A program made the position numbers and the translations under genes. 34,080 bases of DNA from a virus. Positions 10,607 through 23,504 of this stretch are shown here, one piece after another; positions within the stretch are counted from its first letter, which is position 1; every line of letters starts with the position of its first letter. The notes under the pieces are model-generated. The model saw only the letters and a list, made by a program, of their open reading frames with translations. It searched no databases and was not told the DNA's origin. The stretch lies in IMG/VR virus record IMGVR_UViG_3300017971_000570, positions 1 to 34,080 of that record; one strand, given 5' to 3'.

Positions 10607-10613
10607 TATAGTG

Positions 10614-11213
10614 ATGGATAAAGACGGTATGGACACAAAACAGATCAAGCGTAACGCTGGAGAGGATGAGTTAACTCTTTCGATGGCAGATGCATTTGAT
10701 CATCTGGACAAAACAGGCGAATTGCCTGAAGACCTTCAGTTAAAGAAGGAGGAACCACCAGTAGACCCAGATGTTTCTGAAAAAACTGGAAGGAAAGTAC
10801 CTCAGGCAGAGGAGGAAAAACCACCTGAACCTGAAGCCGAACCAGAACCCGAACCTGAGCCTGAGCCAGAACCCGAACCTGAGCCAGAACCCGAACCTGA
10901 ACCTGAGCCAGTGGAAGAAGAGGAACCCAGCTATGAACTGGACGAACTCAACAAGTTGGCAGGTGATGAGGAGGAATTGAAGAAACCTGAGCACAGTCGG
11001 GCAGATGACGATGATGCCAAGGAGGAGATCGAGGAGATTCGCAAGAACCCACATACACCTGAGAAGACCAAGAAGGGAATCGACAGGCTGCTGGGTAACA
11101 ACAATCGGTTGAAGAAGTTTCTTGAGGAAGAACGAGGCAAGGTTGCGACCCTTCAAGCTGAGGTTGAAAGCCTGAAGAACGCCCAGCCACAAGAGAATCC
11201 AATCTCTGAGTAG
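10614..11213 (+). CDS. Scaffold-like protein, N-terminal ORF (acidic, Glu-Pro repeats)
   Basis: This 199-residue, strongly acidic protein has a 28-residue Glu-Pro repeat (about 72-99), an acidic region, and a C-terminal coiled coil (GIDRLLGNNNRLKKFLEEER, then KVATLQAEVESLKNA). An acidic N-part with a helical C-part is typical of capsid scaffolding proteins, and it lies between portal and capsid genes. ATG 10614 is chosen over GTG 10611. The ORF ends at an amber TAG (11211-11213), and the next ORF continues in the same frame after four sense codons, so the two may be one protein in evolutionary or functional terms. Confidence 0.65.
   Translation: MDKDGMDTKQIKRNAGEDELTLSMADAFDHLDKTGELPEDLQLKKEEPPVDPDVSEKTGRKVPQAEEEKPPEPEAEPEPEPEPEPEPEPEPEPEPEPEPVEEEEPSYELDELNKLAGDEEELKKPEHSRADDDDAKEEIEEIRKNPHTPEKTKKGIDRLLGNNNRLKKFLEEERGKVATLQAEVESLKNAQPQENPISE
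10827..10910 (+). repeat. Hexanucleotide tandem repeat coding for Glu-Pro
   Basis: Fourteen imperfect copies of a 6-nt unit GA(A/G)CC(N) encode alternating Glu and Pro. One unit encodes Glu-Ala. Larger blocks such as CCAGAACCCGAACCTGAG recur, which suggests expansion by slippage. Copy number probably varies between relatives. Confidence 0.9.
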
Positions 11214-11225
11214 GAACGGCATGAG

Positions 11226-12044
11226 TTGAATATGCTCCGAATGAAACATAACATTGGCAGCGATGAAACCATTCGGAAGAATTATGACGAACCGATTTCT
11301 GCAACTGAGAAGAAAATCTACGGTATCGTTGATCGGGCATTGCCAGATGATCAGGCAAAGCAGGTCAAGGAAATGGGCTTCGAGAATTTCGCACGGAGAT
11401 TCCCGACAGCTTACAAGGAACTGCTCACGAATTTGCAGGAAGATAGTCCACTTGATGCAAGTATCCTCAGTTCATCGGTCAACGATCTGGTGACATTGAG
11501 ATCCTCCCGTGAGGCAGCTGTCGAGAAGATGACTTCTGATGCAGATGATTATTTCAAGAATCAGGAACAGGCAATTGCTCAGGCAATGGAGAAGCGTAAA
11601 GCTGATCTGGAGCAATTGAAGCAGGACACCTACAATGAACTGATTGCTACCAATCCATTATATGCGGATATTCCGACCAAGGGACTGGCTGGAGAAGAAC
11701 TGGAACTGGCTAACCGTGAAAACAAACTCAGGGCTGGATACAGGAATATGGCACAGGAGTTTATCAATGTGAATACTGTCGATGGGCAGAAGAAGATGAT
11801 CGCTTATGCCACATTGAGTTTCAGGCTGGCAGACAGGGTTAAGCAGCTTGCTGCCAGAATCAAACAGCTGGAAGCTGGCAAAAAGGACGTGGTCGATGCC
11901 CGTAAATTGAGAAAGGGCAAGGAGACTCCAGCTGCCAAGGAGGAACCACCTCCTGCACCTGTTTCATTTGGTGAAGCACTGGATCAGGCTGCAAACAGAA
12001 GTCCGATAAGCCCATTGAGGTCAACACGTTCAGTCCCACGATAA
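11226..12044 (+). CDS. Scaffold-like helical protein, C-terminal ORF
   Basis: This 272-residue mostly helical protein has long coiled-coil segments (SREAAVEKMTSDADDYFKNQ, then QAMEKRKADLEQLKQDTYNE) and a basic coil near 205-240. Start choice is unclear: TTG 11226 has AGGA about 10 nt upstream, ATG 11232 and ATG 11241 are alternatives, and none is strong. It continues the frame of the previous ORF after a single TAG. The two together would make about 476 residues, a plausible scaffold. It ends 3 nt before the glycosyltransferase gene. Confidence 0.6.
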   Translation: MNMLRMKHNIGSDETIRKNYDEPISATEKKIYGIVDRALPDDQAKQVKEMGFENFARRFPTAYKELLTNLQEDSPLDASILSSSVNDLVTLRSSREAAVEKMTSDADDYFKNQEQAIAQAMEKRKADLEQLKQDTYNELIATNPLYADIPTKGLAGEELELANRENKLRAGYRNMAQEFINVNTVDGQKKMIAYATLSFRLADRVKQLAARIKQLEAGKKDVVDARKLRKGKETPAAKEEPPPAPVSFGEALDQAANRSPISPLRSTRSVPR

Positions 12045-12047
12045 GCC

Positions 12048-12956
12048 ATGACCACAATCAATCTTTCAGAAATAGTCGTCTCTTGGATTGAGCGAGTAGG
12101 GGTTGATGATGCCCTGAAGGAACTCCAAGAGAAACTTGGCAAGAAATACGCACCAGCAACACTCAAAAGCTGGAAGCAAGGGAATGTAGATCCACCACTA
12201 GCTGTTGCCCAAATGGTGATGGACGGGGGGAGGATCGATTGGTCCTCCCCCGAAACCCTTTTTGACGGGTCGAAGGTATACATCATATCTCCCGTATATG
12301 ATCGGGTTTCGTTTCTGATGTACAAGGCAACCCACATTCTGCGGTATCGGTATGAGAAGCAGCTGGGTATTTTGACCATGATGGGCAGCGAACTTGCCCT
12401 GTTACGCAACAAGCTGGCAGATAAGTTCCTGACAACAGATGCCGAATGGGCACTATGGTTGGATTCGGATATGGCACCACCTATGGGGTATCCAGCAGAA
12501 TCCCAGAAATGGGGAGCAGATTTTGCTCAGGAGTTCAATGAGGTCGATGTGATCGAGAAGTTGATGAGCCACGGGAAGACCATTGTCAGTGCAGTGTACT
12601 ATGACAGGTATGGAACAGGCATCCCCATGTTTGAGCAGGGAAGAAATGATCCAGCACTTGCAGCCAGACTCAGGCAGGGACCACGCAATGAACTGATGAC
12701 AACCGACTGGGTTGGTGCAGGATGCTGCCTCGTGCATCGGAAGGTGTATGAGGACATGCTGGAAAAAATTCCTGAGATTCGCAAACCGAACGAACAGACA
12801 CCGAATGGATATTATACCCCAATTGAAAACGGATACGGTGAGGATACTTCATTTTGCATTCGTGCTAAAACCATTGGGCATCAATCCCATGTGGATCTGG
12901 GGTGTATATGTGGGCATGTGGGCGAAATCGCCCATTTTAACAAGAAGATTCGATAG
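12048..12956 (+). CDS. Glycosyltransferase with a helix-turn-helix-like N-terminal domain
   Basis: This 302-residue protein joins two parts. Residues about 10-60 look like a repressor-type helix-turn-helix (ALKELQEKLGKKYAPATLKS, then PPLAVAQMVMD). Residues about 75-300 look like a GT-A glycosyltransferase: a first strand VYIISPVYDRVS, the metal-binding DxD motif WLDSDMAPP (D139, D141), an acceptor-loop segment DWVGAGCCLVHRKVYEDM, and GYGEDTSFCIRAKTIGH near the base-binding Asp/Glu. It would transfer a sugar from a nucleotide donor. Between scaffold and capsid genes, a virion protein is one possible acceptor; DNA or host surface glycan are alternatives. Confidence 0.75.
   Translation: MTTINLSEIVVSWIERVGVDDALKELQEKLGKKYAPATLKSWKQGNVDPPLAVAQMVMDGGRIDWSSPETLFDGSKVYIISPVYDRVSFLMYKATHILRYRYEKQLGILTMMGSELALLRNKLADKFLTTDAEWALWLDSDMAPPMGYPAESQKWGADFAQEFNEVDVIEKLMSHGKTIVSAVYYDRYGTGIPMFEQGRNDPALAARLRQGPRNELMTTDWVGAGCCLVHRKVYEDMLEKIPEIRKPNEQTPNGYYTPIENGYGEDTSFCIRAKTIGHQSHVDLGCICGHVGEIAHFNKKIR
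12224..12252 (+). terminator. Intragenic terminator-like hairpin
   Basis: CGGGGGGAGGA (12224-12234) pairs with TCCTCCCCCG (12243-12252) with one bulged G and an 8-nt loop. It is followed by GAAACCC and five T. It lies inside the coding sequence, just where the helix-turn-helix-like part gives way to the glycosyltransferase part. It could attenuate transcription when ribosomes are absent. Confidence 0.45.
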
Positions 12957-12966
12957 GAGGAAAAAA

Positions 12967-12996
12967 TTATTCATCAACGAATCAATATGCTATAAT
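12967..12996 (+). promoter_or_regulatory. Late promoter P2 (capsid)
   Basis: ATTCATC at 12969-12975, 15 nt, then TATAATC at 12991-12997 with extended TGC before the -10. This is the same spacing as the copies at 7947 and 25508. The predicted start is near 13003, giving a leader of about 185 nt to the capsid ATG. Confidence 0.8.
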
Positions 12997-13002
12997 CCAT
13001 AA

Positions 13003-13187
13003 AACGGAAGTAAGTGGGTTCGCCACCACATTAGCTGTAATATATCTCTCAGCGTTCAGCTAGCTGGGAACAAGGAATGGTGAAAATACGTCCATCCACC
13101 GTGGACAGACTCAGACGTGTCATGGACTGTCAGCACTTCGGCTGATCGTTCTAGATACATAACCTTATTCTAAGGAGATATTTTACT
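13003..13187 (+). ncRNA. Structured 5' leader of the capsid mRNA (candidate)
   Basis: This stretch has no ORF of note but several possible hairpins. These are GTGG/CCAC at 13014-13026, GTTC/GAAC around an AGCTAGCT core at 13054-13071 (competing with TAGCTG at 13032-13037), GTCCA/TGGAC at 13090-13106, and GTCAGC/GCTGAT at 13129-13146. It ends with an optimal AAGGAG ribosome binding site before the capsid ATG. It may stabilise the mRNA or control translation of the most abundant virion protein. No known riboswitch or ribozyme core is recognised. Confidence 0.45.
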
Positions 13188-14411
13188 ATGGCTTGTGTTG
13201 ATCCAACCACTGTATCCAGTCTTGTTGCACAACAGGTGCCTCAGGTACAGGAAAAGATTAACTACTGGATTATGGTGCATTCACCGTTCGCTAATGTTGT
13301 CAATGGTGATACATTTGAATCCAATCAGGGTGATGACATCATCAATGCGGTGACCAACCGTGTGGCACCGGGACATTCGCTCACACGTCCAGTGTTCGTG
13401 AATCGTGCCAATGCATGTGGACTTGCTCCATCGCAGGATAAGTTCGGTCAGACTCTCTTCACTGCCACAATGCAGACCCTCCGTGGTCGTGGTCCAGACG
13501 TTTGCGTGAAGCAAGCAGTCTCCACTGTGAAGAGTTCCTATGAATCTGCCGAAGACTCCCTGAAGGACAATGTTTCCAATCTGGTCAATGTCGATATCCG
13601 TGCCCAGCTGCACGATCTGTCGGGCGTGAAGATGGTTGCCAGATCTGGTGAACAGTTCGAGGACTTGCTCTCTGGTGGTCTTAATCAGATTGCCGTTGAC
13701 TACAATGGTCTGACACCAGACTCCCCGATGTCCTTCGTGGCACTTGAACTGCTCACGCAGTACATGACCGACATCCTCAAGCTGAAGATGTTCGCTAGCG
13801 GTGCCAATGCACACTTCCGTGTTATCACTGGTCGTGCCCAGAACAGCATTTTCCGTAATGAAGCGAACCCGAATCAGAACCTCTTAGGTGCTATGCAGGG
13901 TTCCTATACTGACGGCAAGAACTCCCTCTGGGGATTTGCATGGACCGACCTGACCTACCGTGGCATTGCCCTTGGTATCGATGAGGAACCACTACGTTTC
14001 AACTGTCTCGATGACGATGGTAATCCTATCTTTATTGAGCCGATCATTGAAACTGCTGGTGACCGTGGATTCAATGGTATATCCAATCCAGAATGGCAGA
14101 ATGCCAAGTATGAAGTCGGATTCTGCATTGCTCCGAACAACTTCACCCGTTACGTCCCAGCACGTTATGTCGGTGAAGGTACGTTCCGCTTCGCACCCCA
14201 GATGTCTGGTGGTGAACTGGAGTGGTTCTACAGCAAGGATTGCAATAATGAATACGGGGATGTCGGACACCACCACTACGAAATCGAACGTGCGTACAGT
14301 GCCCAACAGCCACATGCTGTTATTCCATTCATTTACCTCAGGGAAAAGTCCAATACAGGACTGGTTGCTGGTACTGCTTACAGCAATACCGATACTTGCC
14401 CAGCAGGTTAA
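13188..14411 (+). CDS. Major capsid protein
   Basis: This 407-residue protein begins MACVDPTTVSSLVAQQVPQV. Support is its place after portal and scaffold-like genes, a typical capsid length, its own promoter, a strong AAGGAGAT ribosome binding site, and flanking hairpins that isolate the gene as a high-expression unit. The sequence mixes strands and helices with no enzyme motif. A segment DLSGVKMVARSGEQFEDLLS is followed by LNQIAVDYNGLTPDSPMSFV. An HK97-type fold is expected from the gene context but cannot be proven by eye. Confidence 0.8.
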   Translation: MACVDPTTVSSLVAQQVPQVQEKINYWIMVHSPFANVVNGDTFESNQGDDIINAVTNRVAPGHSLTRPVFVNRANACGLAPSQDKFGQTLFTATMQTLRGRGPDVCVKQAVSTVKSSYESAEDSLKDNVSNLVNVDIRAQLHDLSGVKMVARSGEQFEDLLSGGLNQIAVDYNGLTPDSPMSFVALELLTQYMTDILKLKMFASGANAHFRVITGRAQNSIFRNEANPNQNLLGAMQGSYTDGKNSLWGFAWTDLTYRGIALGIDEEPLRFNCLDDDGNPIFIEPIIETAGDRGFNGISNPEWQNAKYEVGFCIAPNNFTRYVPARYVGEGTFRFAPQMSGGELEWFYSKDCNNEYGDVGHHHYEIERAYSAQQPHAVIPFIYLREKSNTGLVAGTAYSNTDTCPAG

Positions 14412-18676: not shown

Positions 18677-19945
18677 ATGTCTTATAAACCAAGAGAATCT
18701 GATGGTTCTAATTTGAACAGATTAATCACGTCACTGGGTGACAATCCCGTGCAGGGAAGTCAAAACGTGATTCAATCTAATATAATCAAATCGATGTGGA
18801 ACCTCAAACGCCAGATCGATGAAAACACGTCTGGTCTTGGTGATAAGATACCTGACCAGATTAATGCTGTCTACGTCAGTAAGGCAGGGAATGACAGTGA
18901 TGATGGTCTAACACAGGCAAAGCCAAAGCTGACGATTGCTAGTGCCAAGACGGCATCGGATGCCATGTCTGCTCCAGTGGCTATTATTGTGCTGGATGCA
19001 GGGGTGTACACGGAGAATGTTGTCCTTCCGTCAAACATTCATTTGTTCGCACCGATGGCAAGCTTGGCTGGATCGATCACAATGGGAGGTGTGTCCTCAG
19101 TAGTGCTGGACAAACATTATGCCTCTGTTAGTGGGCAGACCATGGTGGACAGGACAGATAATGGTGCTGGTCTTGCAACTTATTGTGTAAATGAAATGGA
19201 TGGTCGTGGTATTGCAGCAGGGTTTGATAATGTTTCCTGTATTTATCCAGCTGGCACGGGTTCTCTATTTGTTCAGGCCAGAAGAATTATCGTAACTTCC
19301 ACAACTGGATGGGCTATTACAGACGAAACAACTGGATGTAACATCAATTTCGATATTGGTGAAATCGCACTTGTCGGTGTTGGTTCAAACGGTATTCGTT
19401 CAGACGGTGACAGTAGTTCTATCATTGGCAGGGTAGGTACGATCTCTGGTGCCAGTGGTATTGCCATCTATGCTAATTCACAAGCAAGCATACAAGTTGT
19501 GGCAAATGCCATAGCTGGTGCTACGTCCTTCTGGGTAGCAGATGCAGCTAATCAGTTGCAGGTTATCTGTGGTGCTGTTGATGGGGCAAGGGCTGGCAGT
19601 TTCGAGCCATTTCTTGAGTTGAGTGGTGATACCGTCCTGAAGGCACGACCAATTACTGAGTCTGGTACGACCCGTACCCTGTCATTCTATGACCTGAACA
19701 AATACATCAGGTGTACGAATGCTGGTGCAGTGGTTGTCACCGTCCCAACTGGGTTGGTTACAGGATTCCAGACTACGGTCTGGGCAAATGGTGCTGGTGG
19801 TGTGACCATCCGTGGTGCAAACACAGTTACCCTAAACGGCAACACCGAAGCAGGTGGTGGCGAATCTGATGTGGCAGTTGCCCAATACAAGGCAGTGACA
19901 ATTGTTAGCAATGGTTCCAATAATTATGATGTGATAGGGGGATAA
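18677..19945 (+). CDS. Tail fibre/spike with beta-helix, adapter type A
   Basis: This 422-residue protein starts with the shared anchor peptide MSYKPRESDGSNLNRLITSL (about 1-50). A right-handed beta-helix-like region follows (about 60-310; VYVSKAGNDSDDGLTQAKPK is the typical entry to pectate-lyase-like spikes). The C-terminal domain (about 330-422) has YIRCTNAGAVVVTVPTG and TLNGNTEAGGGESDV. It has an excellent AAGGAGG ribosome binding site. It is a paralogue of the protein at 21766. It probably binds or cuts host surface glycans, but no catalytic residues can be assigned. Confidence 0.75.
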   Translation: MSYKPRESDGSNLNRLITSLGDNPVQGSQNVIQSNIIKSMWNLKRQIDENTSGLGDKIPDQINAVYVSKAGNDSDDGLTQAKPKLTIASAKTASDAMSAPVAIIVLDAGVYTENVVLPSNIHLFAPMASLAGSITMGGVSSVVLDKHYASVSGQTMVDRTDNGAGLATYCVNEMDGRGIAAGFDNVSCIYPAGTGSLFVQARRIIVTSTTGWAITDETTGCNINFDIGEIALVGVGSNGIRSDGDSSSIIGRVGTISGASGIAIYANSQASIQVVANAIAGATSFWVADAANQLQVICGAVDGARAGSFEPFLELSGDTVLKARPITESGTTRTLSFYDLNKYIRCTNAGAVVVTVPTGLVTGFQTTVWANGAGGVTIRGANTVTLNGNTEAGGGESDVAVAQYKAVTIVSNGSNNYDVIGG

Positions 19946-21765: not shown

Positions 21766-23100
21766 ATGGGATATAAACCAAGAGAATCGACTGGATTAAA
21801 TCTTCAAGCCTTAATCAGAGATTTGGGAGATGTGCCGCAAGTCGGTGGACAGAACGAGTTCAATTCCAATCTTGTGAAGGGTTTGTGGAACCTGAAGGCA
21901 AGGAGTGATGAGAATGCAGCAGCAGCTGCACAGGCAGCAGTGACATCCACATTCCCTGAAGAAACCCAAACCTTCTGGGTCAGCGGTGTAGGTGATGATA
22001 CCAATATTGGAACTCGTCCTGATGCACCGTTAAAGACATTGGCAGCTGCAACTGCAAAGTGCAGTGCCAGTACACGGGATCTGATTATCGTTACGGGCAC
22101 TTGGTTTTTTCAAGAGGATGTAGTGCTGCCATCATATACGCAATTGATTGGATCTCAGATGGGGTTGCAGGGAACGATTAAGGTTGGTCGTTGGTGTGTC
22201 ATTGATATTGATCGTCACTATGCCAGTGCCACCAACTCGATCATGGTGGAAAATACCACTACTGAATTAGCTGACTTCAACTATTACCGTTGTAATTATG
22301 TTTATAATAATTACGGAGGATTTACTGGAGTCACGACATTTGGTGTGAACCTTGCCAGTGGAAGCTATACACCATGGTGGGATATTGAAATCTCATATGT
22401 CACTATTAGTAGTGGTGGCAGTATGTTTTCAGATTCTGGAAACACTGTTGGGATACAGGTTCAAAGGTGTTGGATTACTGAGGCTTATAATGCATACACA
22501 CCTTCTGAGTTTATTTCGCTCACCACAGGTTTCAGTACTGTGCATGTGGACATCGGTGAACTTACTGGAGGTGGCAAGTTCATGGTTCTGACAGGTGCAG
22601 CTACGGTATGGGTGAGGGCAAAGTCACTGTTTCCCGGTGTACTGTACGATGCCACAGCTGCAAATATAATTCACTTGGATGTCCTGTATCTCAGTCAGTT
22701 CGCTGACCGAATTGGTGATCCAAAGCTTTTTGAACAATCCAATGAAACCGTAAAGCATAACGAACCATCCACTGTACAAGACAAGACATCGAGTTTCCAA
22801 ATATCCAAAACTTCACCATTAGGTGGCACAGGATATGGATTCTATGTGGCAAACTCAGCTGGTGCGATCATCGTTACCATTCCCGATGACTCTGCATTTG
22901 ATTCACCATACCTGATAGGATTTGAAACAGAGGTCTGGCACAAGGGTGCTGGGACAGTAACTGCACGGGGAGGAACTGGCGTGACACTCAATGGCAACAC
23001 TGAGGCTGGAGGTGGTGAATCTGACGTAGTCAGTGGAGGACAGAACACTTTAATGCGGATAAAGAAAATTGCTGCCCTTGAATGGGTGGTCATCAAGTAA
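21766..23100 (+). CDS. Tail fibre/spike with beta-helix, paralogue
   Basis: This 444-residue protein has the anchor MGYKPRESTGLNLQALIRDL and an Ala-rich coil (NAAAAAQAAV). A pectate-lyase-like beta-helix entry (FWVSGVGDDTNIGTRPDAPL) and a C-terminal domain ending with TLNGNTEAGGGESDV follow. Both ends match the protein at 18677 while the middle differs, as expected of receptor-binding variants. It starts 1 nt after the previous stop and overlaps the next gene (TAATG). Confidence 0.75.
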   Translation: MGYKPRESTGLNLQALIRDLGDVPQVGGQNEFNSNLVKGLWNLKARSDENAAAAAQAAVTSTFPEETQTFWVSGVGDDTNIGTRPDAPLKTLAAATAKCSASTRDLIIVTGTWFFQEDVVLPSYTQLIGSQMGLQGTIKVGRWCVIDIDRHYASATNSIMVENTTTELADFNYYRCNYVYNNYGGFTGVTTFGVNLASGSYTPWWDIEISYVTISSGGSMFSDSGNTVGIQVQRCWITEAYNAYTPSEFISLTTGFSTVHVDIGELTGGGKFMVLTGAATVWVRAKSLFPGVLYDATAANIIHLDVLYLSQFADRIGDPKLFEQSNETVKHNEPSTVQDKTSSFQISKTSPLGGTGYGFYVANSAGAIIVTIPDDSAFDSPYLIGFETEVWHKGAGTVTARGGTGVTLNGNTEAGGGESDVVSGGQNTLMRIKKIAALEWVVIK

Positions 23101-23504
23101 TGTCATATAAACCAAGACAGTCAGATGGTTCCAACATCATGGAACTTATCGATAAGCTGGGAAGCAATCCTCCAGCCGAACGACAGGTTCCAGTTATAAC
23201 CAATATCATTCGTGCCCTATACAATTTCGACAGGGTTTTCGATGACATTGGTGGTCCTCCCATACTGTACTTCGTTTCCAGCGATTACACGGCAACAGAC
23301 AATGATCTTATCGTTATCAGGAACCTAACATCAGACATCACCATTACGCTTCCAGAGTCTGGCAGCATCTACATCAAGAGGATGGATGATTCAAATTACA
23401 CCGTAACAATCAATGGCACCATCGATGGTGAGACTGGAGTGATCCTTGACTACCGTGACGGGATGCATCTGGTCGGTTCCAGCAATCAATTCTTCTTTGT
23501 ATAG
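23100..23504 (+). CDS. Short fibre protein with the same anchor peptide
   Basis: This 134-residue protein begins MSYKPRQSDGSNIMELIDKL. It is the third neighbour with this anchor (about 1-50). It is followed directly by a small beta domain (about 57-134, LIVIRNLTSDITITLPESG) and no beta-helix. It looks like a minimal anchor-plus-tip fibre, either a natural short fibre or a deleted relative of the two long ones. The ATG overlaps the previous stop and is chosen over an upstream in-frame start at 23082. Confidence 0.7.
   Translation: MSYKPRQSDGSNIMELIDKLGSNPPAERQVPVITNIIRALYNFDRVFDDIGGPPILYFVSSDYTATDNDLIVIRNLTSDITITLPESGSIYIKRMDDSNYTVTINGTIDGETGVILDYRDGMHLVGSSNQFFFV

Follow-up and report, generated by a model that had tools for sequence, protein, structure and literature searches.

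The window analysed here is a 34,080-nt stretch of viral DNA (positions 1 to 34,080 of IMG/VR record IMGVR_UViG_3300017971_000570), and it raises the question of what a glycosyltransferase (GT) with an extra N-terminal domain is doing among the head genes of a tailed phage. The original prediction had described a GT-A type enzyme with a DxD motif at residues 139-141 and a repressor-like N-terminus, encoded between scaffold and capsid genes, and had proposed that it modifies either a head protein or DNA. The features of the locus are collected in Table 1.

Table 1 Features of the locus (window positions, unless a related contig is named)
Feature	Position	Strand	Basis or remark
Portal-position gene, 677 aa	7983..10016	+	31% identity to the same-place gene in L178; named by position and size
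Scaffold candidate, 272 aa, charged, coiled-coil-like	11226..12044	+	position and composition only
HTH-like / GT-A glycosyltransferase gene	12048..12956	+	302 aa plus stop
Four-helix HTH-like domain, residues 1-62	12048..12233	+	AlphaFold2 helices; link to HTH-GT relatives via L184 and L327
Disordered linker, residues 63-70	12234..12257	+	pLDDT under 50
GT-A catalytic domain, about residues 76-302	12273..12953	+	alignment, AlphaFold2 model, fold and profile matches
DxD motif D139-S140-D141	12462..12470	+	both D invariant, 53-row alignment
E265-D266, candidate catalytic acid pair	12840..12845	+	invariant, 53-row alignment; role inferred from GT-A enzymes generally
H290, candidate metal ligand	12915..12917	+	invariant, 53-row alignment; role inferred
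Non-coding leader of capsid gene	12957..13187	+	no ORF listed as gene; similar length in relatives
H-type RNA pseudoknot candidate	13032..13069	+	0/50 shuffles as good; covarying counterparts in relatives
Major capsid protein, HK97-type fold	13188..14411	+	structural neighbours of model
Examples of the 240-260-aa protein	L178 6939-7667; L179 6969-7691; L183 2104-2826		

The start codon of the GT gene lies 3 nt past the stop of the preceding gene, a spacing as in one transcription unit. An AlphaFold2 model of the 302-residue protein (40-row alignment) had a mean pLDDT of 89.5 and a pTM of 0.78, and the residues after the linker formed an alternating GT-A domain. The fold was recovered in structural searches, with Foldseek E-values down to 6.7e-9 and VIA Z-scores up to 19.0 over residues 75-301. 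When the Foldseek list was ordered by VIA, STIV A197 came top (Z 19.0, 2.1 Å over 169 residues), followed by the collagen transferase LH3, yeast Mnn9, mimivirus R699 and a second collagen transferase, COLGALT1. A profile of the GT family searched against PDB sequences gave Mnn9 (8.8e-8) and STIV A197 (8.3e-6). In PHROGs the protein matched phrog_1574 (8.5e-9) and, at 6e-4, the glycosyltransferase family phrog_34859. The sole Pfam match was to Anp1 (PF03452), at 22 bits below the gathering cut-off of 28.8; this family (Mnn9/Anp1) corresponds to CAZy GT62. The likeness to Mnn9/Anp1 thus lies in the GT-A core (VIA Z 16.8) and the profile match, whereas Mnn9/Anp1 is a eukaryotic mannan polymerase and the window protein falls under the Pfam cut-off.

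Nine residues (R120, D139, D141, G223, G264, E265, D266, G277 and H290) were invariant across 53 aligned sequences; they include both aspartates of the DxD-type metal motif, the conserved acidic residues E265 and D266, and H290. Since the active-site residues of the GT-A fold are conserved, the enzyme is probably active. It has no membrane segment (the highest 19-residue hydropathy is 0.9) and is soluble and probably metal-dependent. The ORF, its DSD triplet, the AlphaFold2 model, the Foldseek and VIA matches and the profile matches together bear out the GT-A assignment that had been made from the letters.

In a search of the phage set, the window GT (P0001) matched only Synechococcus phages and two Caudoviricetes; used as a single query against the viral contigs it gave no match, nor did the GT of L158 against the phage set, and an NCBIfam search returned nothing. 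Small members of the wider GT family adjoin head genes in more distant phages. When 89 proteins neighbouring wider-family GTs were scanned, the commonest matches were to two families of major head proteins, with 13 and 12 members, and proteases and portals were also present. The families phrog_1574 and phrog_34859 and these small head-side enzymes resemble the window GT in sequence and in such neighbours, but they are about 200 aa long and have no HTH, and in MW202711 and MW202496 the 'putative glycosyltransferase' stands one gene past the capsid gene. Another branch of the GT family (L085, L091, L095, L101, L110, L123, L131, L140, L142, L151 and L153) carries, in place of the HTH, an N-terminal extension of about 100-160 aa that is proline- and charge-rich and starts like ...LDSxNPF...

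The gene following the GT was identified as a capsid gene from its product. The model was poor (pLDDT 49); even so, Foldseek ranks 1-33 in the PDB were all phage or satellite capsid structures (best E 1.1e-3), and the VIA rows were capsids or capsid-fold proteins, encapsulins included (best Z 10.3), which confirms an HK97 fold although the model is of low confidence. A BFVD search with the same model gave weak rows only. The protein shared 37-43% identity with a family present in 142 of the 241 pattern-matched viral-contig stretches; as a single query against the viral contigs it gave no match. The 50,697-record phage set yielded no relative at the E-value applied, so on these data the lineage counts as uncultured; close relatives of the window may have escaped the searches. 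The product of the portal-position gene had no PHROG match of weight, and the scaffold candidate did not resemble its scaffold-like counterpart in relatives. Placement between scaffold and capsid, as originally claimed, is thus secure on its capsid side, but the scaffold is named by position and composition. Ahead of the scaffold candidate, positions 10611-11213 encode a strongly acidic protein that contains a long stretch of PEPEPE repeat.

The gene order was examined in related loci collected by their capsid genes, with the GT ignored in the seeding. A GT homologue was found upstream on the same strand in 69 of 80 such loci; the 11 lacking it had at most 4160 nt of upstream DNA each, and all 66 loci with at least 4500 nt upstream had the GT. 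It lay between the two genes in every locus (49/49) that held both a portal homologue and a capsid gene. Seeding with the portal gave the same picture: among 75 of 80 loci (five listed under earlier ids were left out), the GT was present 1.6-2.6 kb past the portal in all 49 with at least 3.5 kb of downstream DNA, and the order portal-GT-capsid was seen in 34 of the 36 with at least 7.5 kb, the other two having no capsid gene in the fetched DNA. Some contigs occur in both seed sets and many are near-copies or overlapping, so these counts are consistency checks and not independent trials; clustering at 80% identity reduces the capsid sequences to 10 groups. Across this uncultured lineage, portal, scaffold-like gene, GT and capsid gene follow one another in a near-absolute order.

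The DNA between the GT and the capsid gene is far less constant. In 69 loci the gap varied between less than 200 nt and about 5 kb, and enzymes of the GDP-mannose dehydratase or sugar epimerase types, assigned with two single-sequence profiles, were present in 33 of them, with both types together in 15. Such a pair can lead to GDP-fucose or a similar deoxyhexose, and GDP-fucose genes are known in phages (PMC10611076). Among 82 representatives of 173 interval proteins (some of which, coming from a simple gene caller, may be false ORFs), Pfam identified GDP_Man_Dehyd in 14 and PS_pyruv_trans in 2, and an FkbM methyltransferase, a DUF6492 protein and a sulfotransferase match in one each. Genes of the Endonuclease VII type (HNH-like; Endonuclease_7, 10 of the 82) are also frequent guests of the interval (L184-L263).

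A conserved protein of 240-260 aa is encoded between the GT and the capsid gene in 64 of the 69 loci and is absent from the window. It was considered as a second transferase, and this idea was set aside because the protein has no Pfam family or informative PDB match and its profile does not resemble that of the first GT. Five loci are like the window in having the GT with no dehydratase, epimerase or 240-260-aa protein; the window itself holds no sugar-supply gene.

In the predicted structure the N-terminal domain consists of four helices (residues 6-17, 19-30, 36-43 and 51-59), with mean pLDDT of 69 for residues 1-10 and block means of 82-92 from there to residue 60. Searched by itself, the domain matched no Pfam family and no HTH regulator among PDB sequences, and against the N-termini of seven HTH-GTs it scored like its shuffles (85/1000 as high). 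The sequence link to the HTH-GTs runs only through two intermediates, L184 and L327: phmmer with L184 gave 16.4 bits to the window domain (0/1000 shuffles as high), and a profile including L184 and L327 gave 10.5 bits (0/5000 shuffles as high). The relatives themselves reached at best 0.001 against the HTH models of Pfam (HTH_3, HTH_31, HTH_28), below the curated cut-offs, L184 scoring 16.2 bits against HTH_3 where the gathering cut-off is 23; with the domain profile against the PDB, eight of ten weak rows were HTH regulators by our reading (best E 0.083). L184 and L327 show a plain Cro/CI-type HTH pattern. The modelled helix layout and the W..G..P.L pattern recall this type; as differences, additional residues are inserted in the turn of the window domain, it lacks a match of its own and it is fused to a GT. 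The repressor-like N-terminus of the original prediction is therefore supported by the four predicted helices and the shuffle-tested link, but not by any HTH match of the domain itself, and an HTH is likely rather than proven. The domain is neutral in charge (8 K/R, 8 D/E), and those of L158 and L088 are slightly acidic; such neutrality in the window gives no reason to expect strong DNA binding.

A domain of about this length occupies the same place in nine other contigs (L184, L327, L158, L088, L105, L145, L165, L182 and L183), giving an HTH-GT fusion at the same locus position in ten contigs, the window included. When 32,301 ORFs were searched with the HTH profile (E up to 0.05), all 18 matches were HTH-GTs, from nine contigs; the window ORF was absent from the matches and no stand-alone copy of the domain was among them. 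Most relatives have no HTH, their GT core being preceded by a short tail at most, and the HTH is therefore not needed for the core task. A quick tree asked for at least three changes to account for five HTH rows, of which its starred branches force only one, and the placement of L184, a long branch, is unsure; the fusion may have had a single origin. One HTH-GT phage segment (L183, JABFSS010000103.1) lies inside a contig binned as Candidatus Peribacteraceae, which is a possible hint at the host or else a binning error.

The leader of the capsid gene keeps a narrow length range in the relatives (median 183 nt, 69 loci). The RNA fold of the window leader had a z of -2.0, and the pseudoknot candidate is the only place in the window, on either strand, with the properties that were searched for. 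For a survey of relatives, 58 of 79 leaders were kept as different enough. Their mean best pseudoknot score was 27.9, compared with 7.9 for dinucleotide shuffles and 11.3 for the opening 230 nt of the capsid genes; all 50 shuffles were outscored in 28 of the 58 leaders, and four leaders had no match. Position and loops agreed in 46 of the 54 matches, among which the first stem took 31 different forms and the second 39, each position showing several pair types. The matches were chosen for pairing, for which the shuffles serve as the control. Stems that vary strongly and stay complementary are thus seen ahead of the capsid gene across the lineage (window; L184-L263). Rfam gave no match for the window, ten loci or the leader, and a pseudoknot in the leader of a phage capsid gene was not found described in titles and abstract openings of the literature.

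The explanation that we favour, at a probability of about 0.6, is that the window GT is a virion glycosyltransferase, probably acting on the capsid, that a tailed phage produces along with its head proteins. The enzyme would use a nucleotide sugar as donor to glycosylate a virion protein, the first candidate being the adjoining major capsid protein, and would do so in the cytoplasm, before or during head assembly. Three lines of evidence support a head protein, the first of the two substrates originally proposed: the GT is very tightly linked to the portal-position and capsid genes, nucleotide-sugar genes occupy the same interval in relatives, and the closest folds are mostly protein or glycan transferases. 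In the relatives, the interval between GT and capsid would be a changeable cassette of genes for supplying or altering the sugar, while the window phage would use its single transferase alone with donors from the host. The HTH-like domain would be an add-on present in some branches, which probably helps to dock or position the enzyme.

The archaeal virus STIV offers the closest comparison. Its coat protein is glycosylated, and its GT, A197, is essential and has been proposed to glycosylate a virion protein in the cytoplasm, before or during assembly (PMC10551542). A197 is a viral GT-A enzyme like the window GT, of which it is the best structural match; it differs in coming from an archaeal virus with another capsid fold and in having no additional domain (PMC10551542). 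Glycosylation of the virions of tailed phages has been demonstrated only recently and in few phages (PMC12691614, PMC12363180 and PMC11256854). Among them, GTs of the mycobacteriophages Che8 (gp110), Corndog (gp38) and Myrna glycosylate capsid and tail tube proteins (PMC12363180); the window GT is likened to these for its proposed function. In a related F1 phage, GT genes are placed near the 3' end of the genome and not among the head genes (PMC11256854). Capsid glycosylation by phage enzymes is thus known already, whereas the fixed place of the GT in the head operon, often with nucleotide-sugar genes, and the HTH fusion look like new findings; neither an HTH-glycosyltransferase fusion nor a GT cassette between scaffold and capsid was found described in titles and abstract openings.

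The linkage that argues for the capsid would also fit another virion protein. A fibre, a decoration protein or a LamG-like protein whose gene lies downstream of the capsid gene could be the acceptor, since the late structural genes all follow downstream in the same direction and one of the 18 Pfam families found among the 38 window proteins is a LamG-like domain; but it is the capsid gene that is the fixed neighbour of the GT in relatives, and we consider such an acceptor unlikely. The nucleotide-sugar genes, for their part, would equally serve an enzyme that alters a surface glycan of the host, for instance to block superinfection or modify a receptor. This is improbable for a soluble protein with no membrane segment, placed among late head genes, and no Gtr-like membrane partner was noted among the interval proteins.

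Glycosylation of the phage DNA, the second of the substrates first proposed, was not supported. DNA glycosylation by phage enzymes is known, and the HTH-like domain could be the DNA-binding part of such an enzyme; however, the Pfam matches of the 38 window proteins include no hydroxymethyl-pyrimidine or other hypermodification family (in a record that is probably incomplete), the HTH is missing from most relatives with the same gene order, and the best fold matches are not DNA transferases. We hold this reading to be very improbable. The domain might instead make the protein bifunctional, binding the DNA of the head operon or the leader RNA of the capsid gene and so tying capsid synthesis to glycosylation. 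The Cro/CI-like pattern in relatives would suit this, as would the position of the leader directly 3' of the GT gene, with its conserved pseudoknot, but the pseudoknot also occurs in relatives that lack the HTH and the charge of the domain, neutral in the window and slightly acidic in two others, is against it; it is very improbable.

Returning to virion glycosylation, the GT keeps its place in nearly all relatives and is often accompanied by sugar-making genes, which suggests that viruses of this lineage sugar-coat their own capsids. Such a coat might stabilise the virion, help it to escape binding or aid attachment. As the GT is fixed between portal and capsid genes, a direct prediction can be made about its acceptor, and the lineage provides many natural variants, with and without the HTH and with and without sugar genes, for testing how and why phages sugar their shells. 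A wider proposal, and a quite unlikely one, would be that the whole lineage has a modular virion-glycosylation locus in its head operon, in which sugar genes are swapped like serotype cassettes and, in some branches including that of the window, the HTH ties the first transferase to the head operon or the leader RNA, so that capsid synthesis and glycosylation are controlled together.

Elsewhere in the window, the proteins encoded at 18677-19945, 21766-23100 and 23082-23504 resemble one another at the N-terminus (M..KPRES/QS.G.N), as paralogues among fibre or adaptor proteins would.
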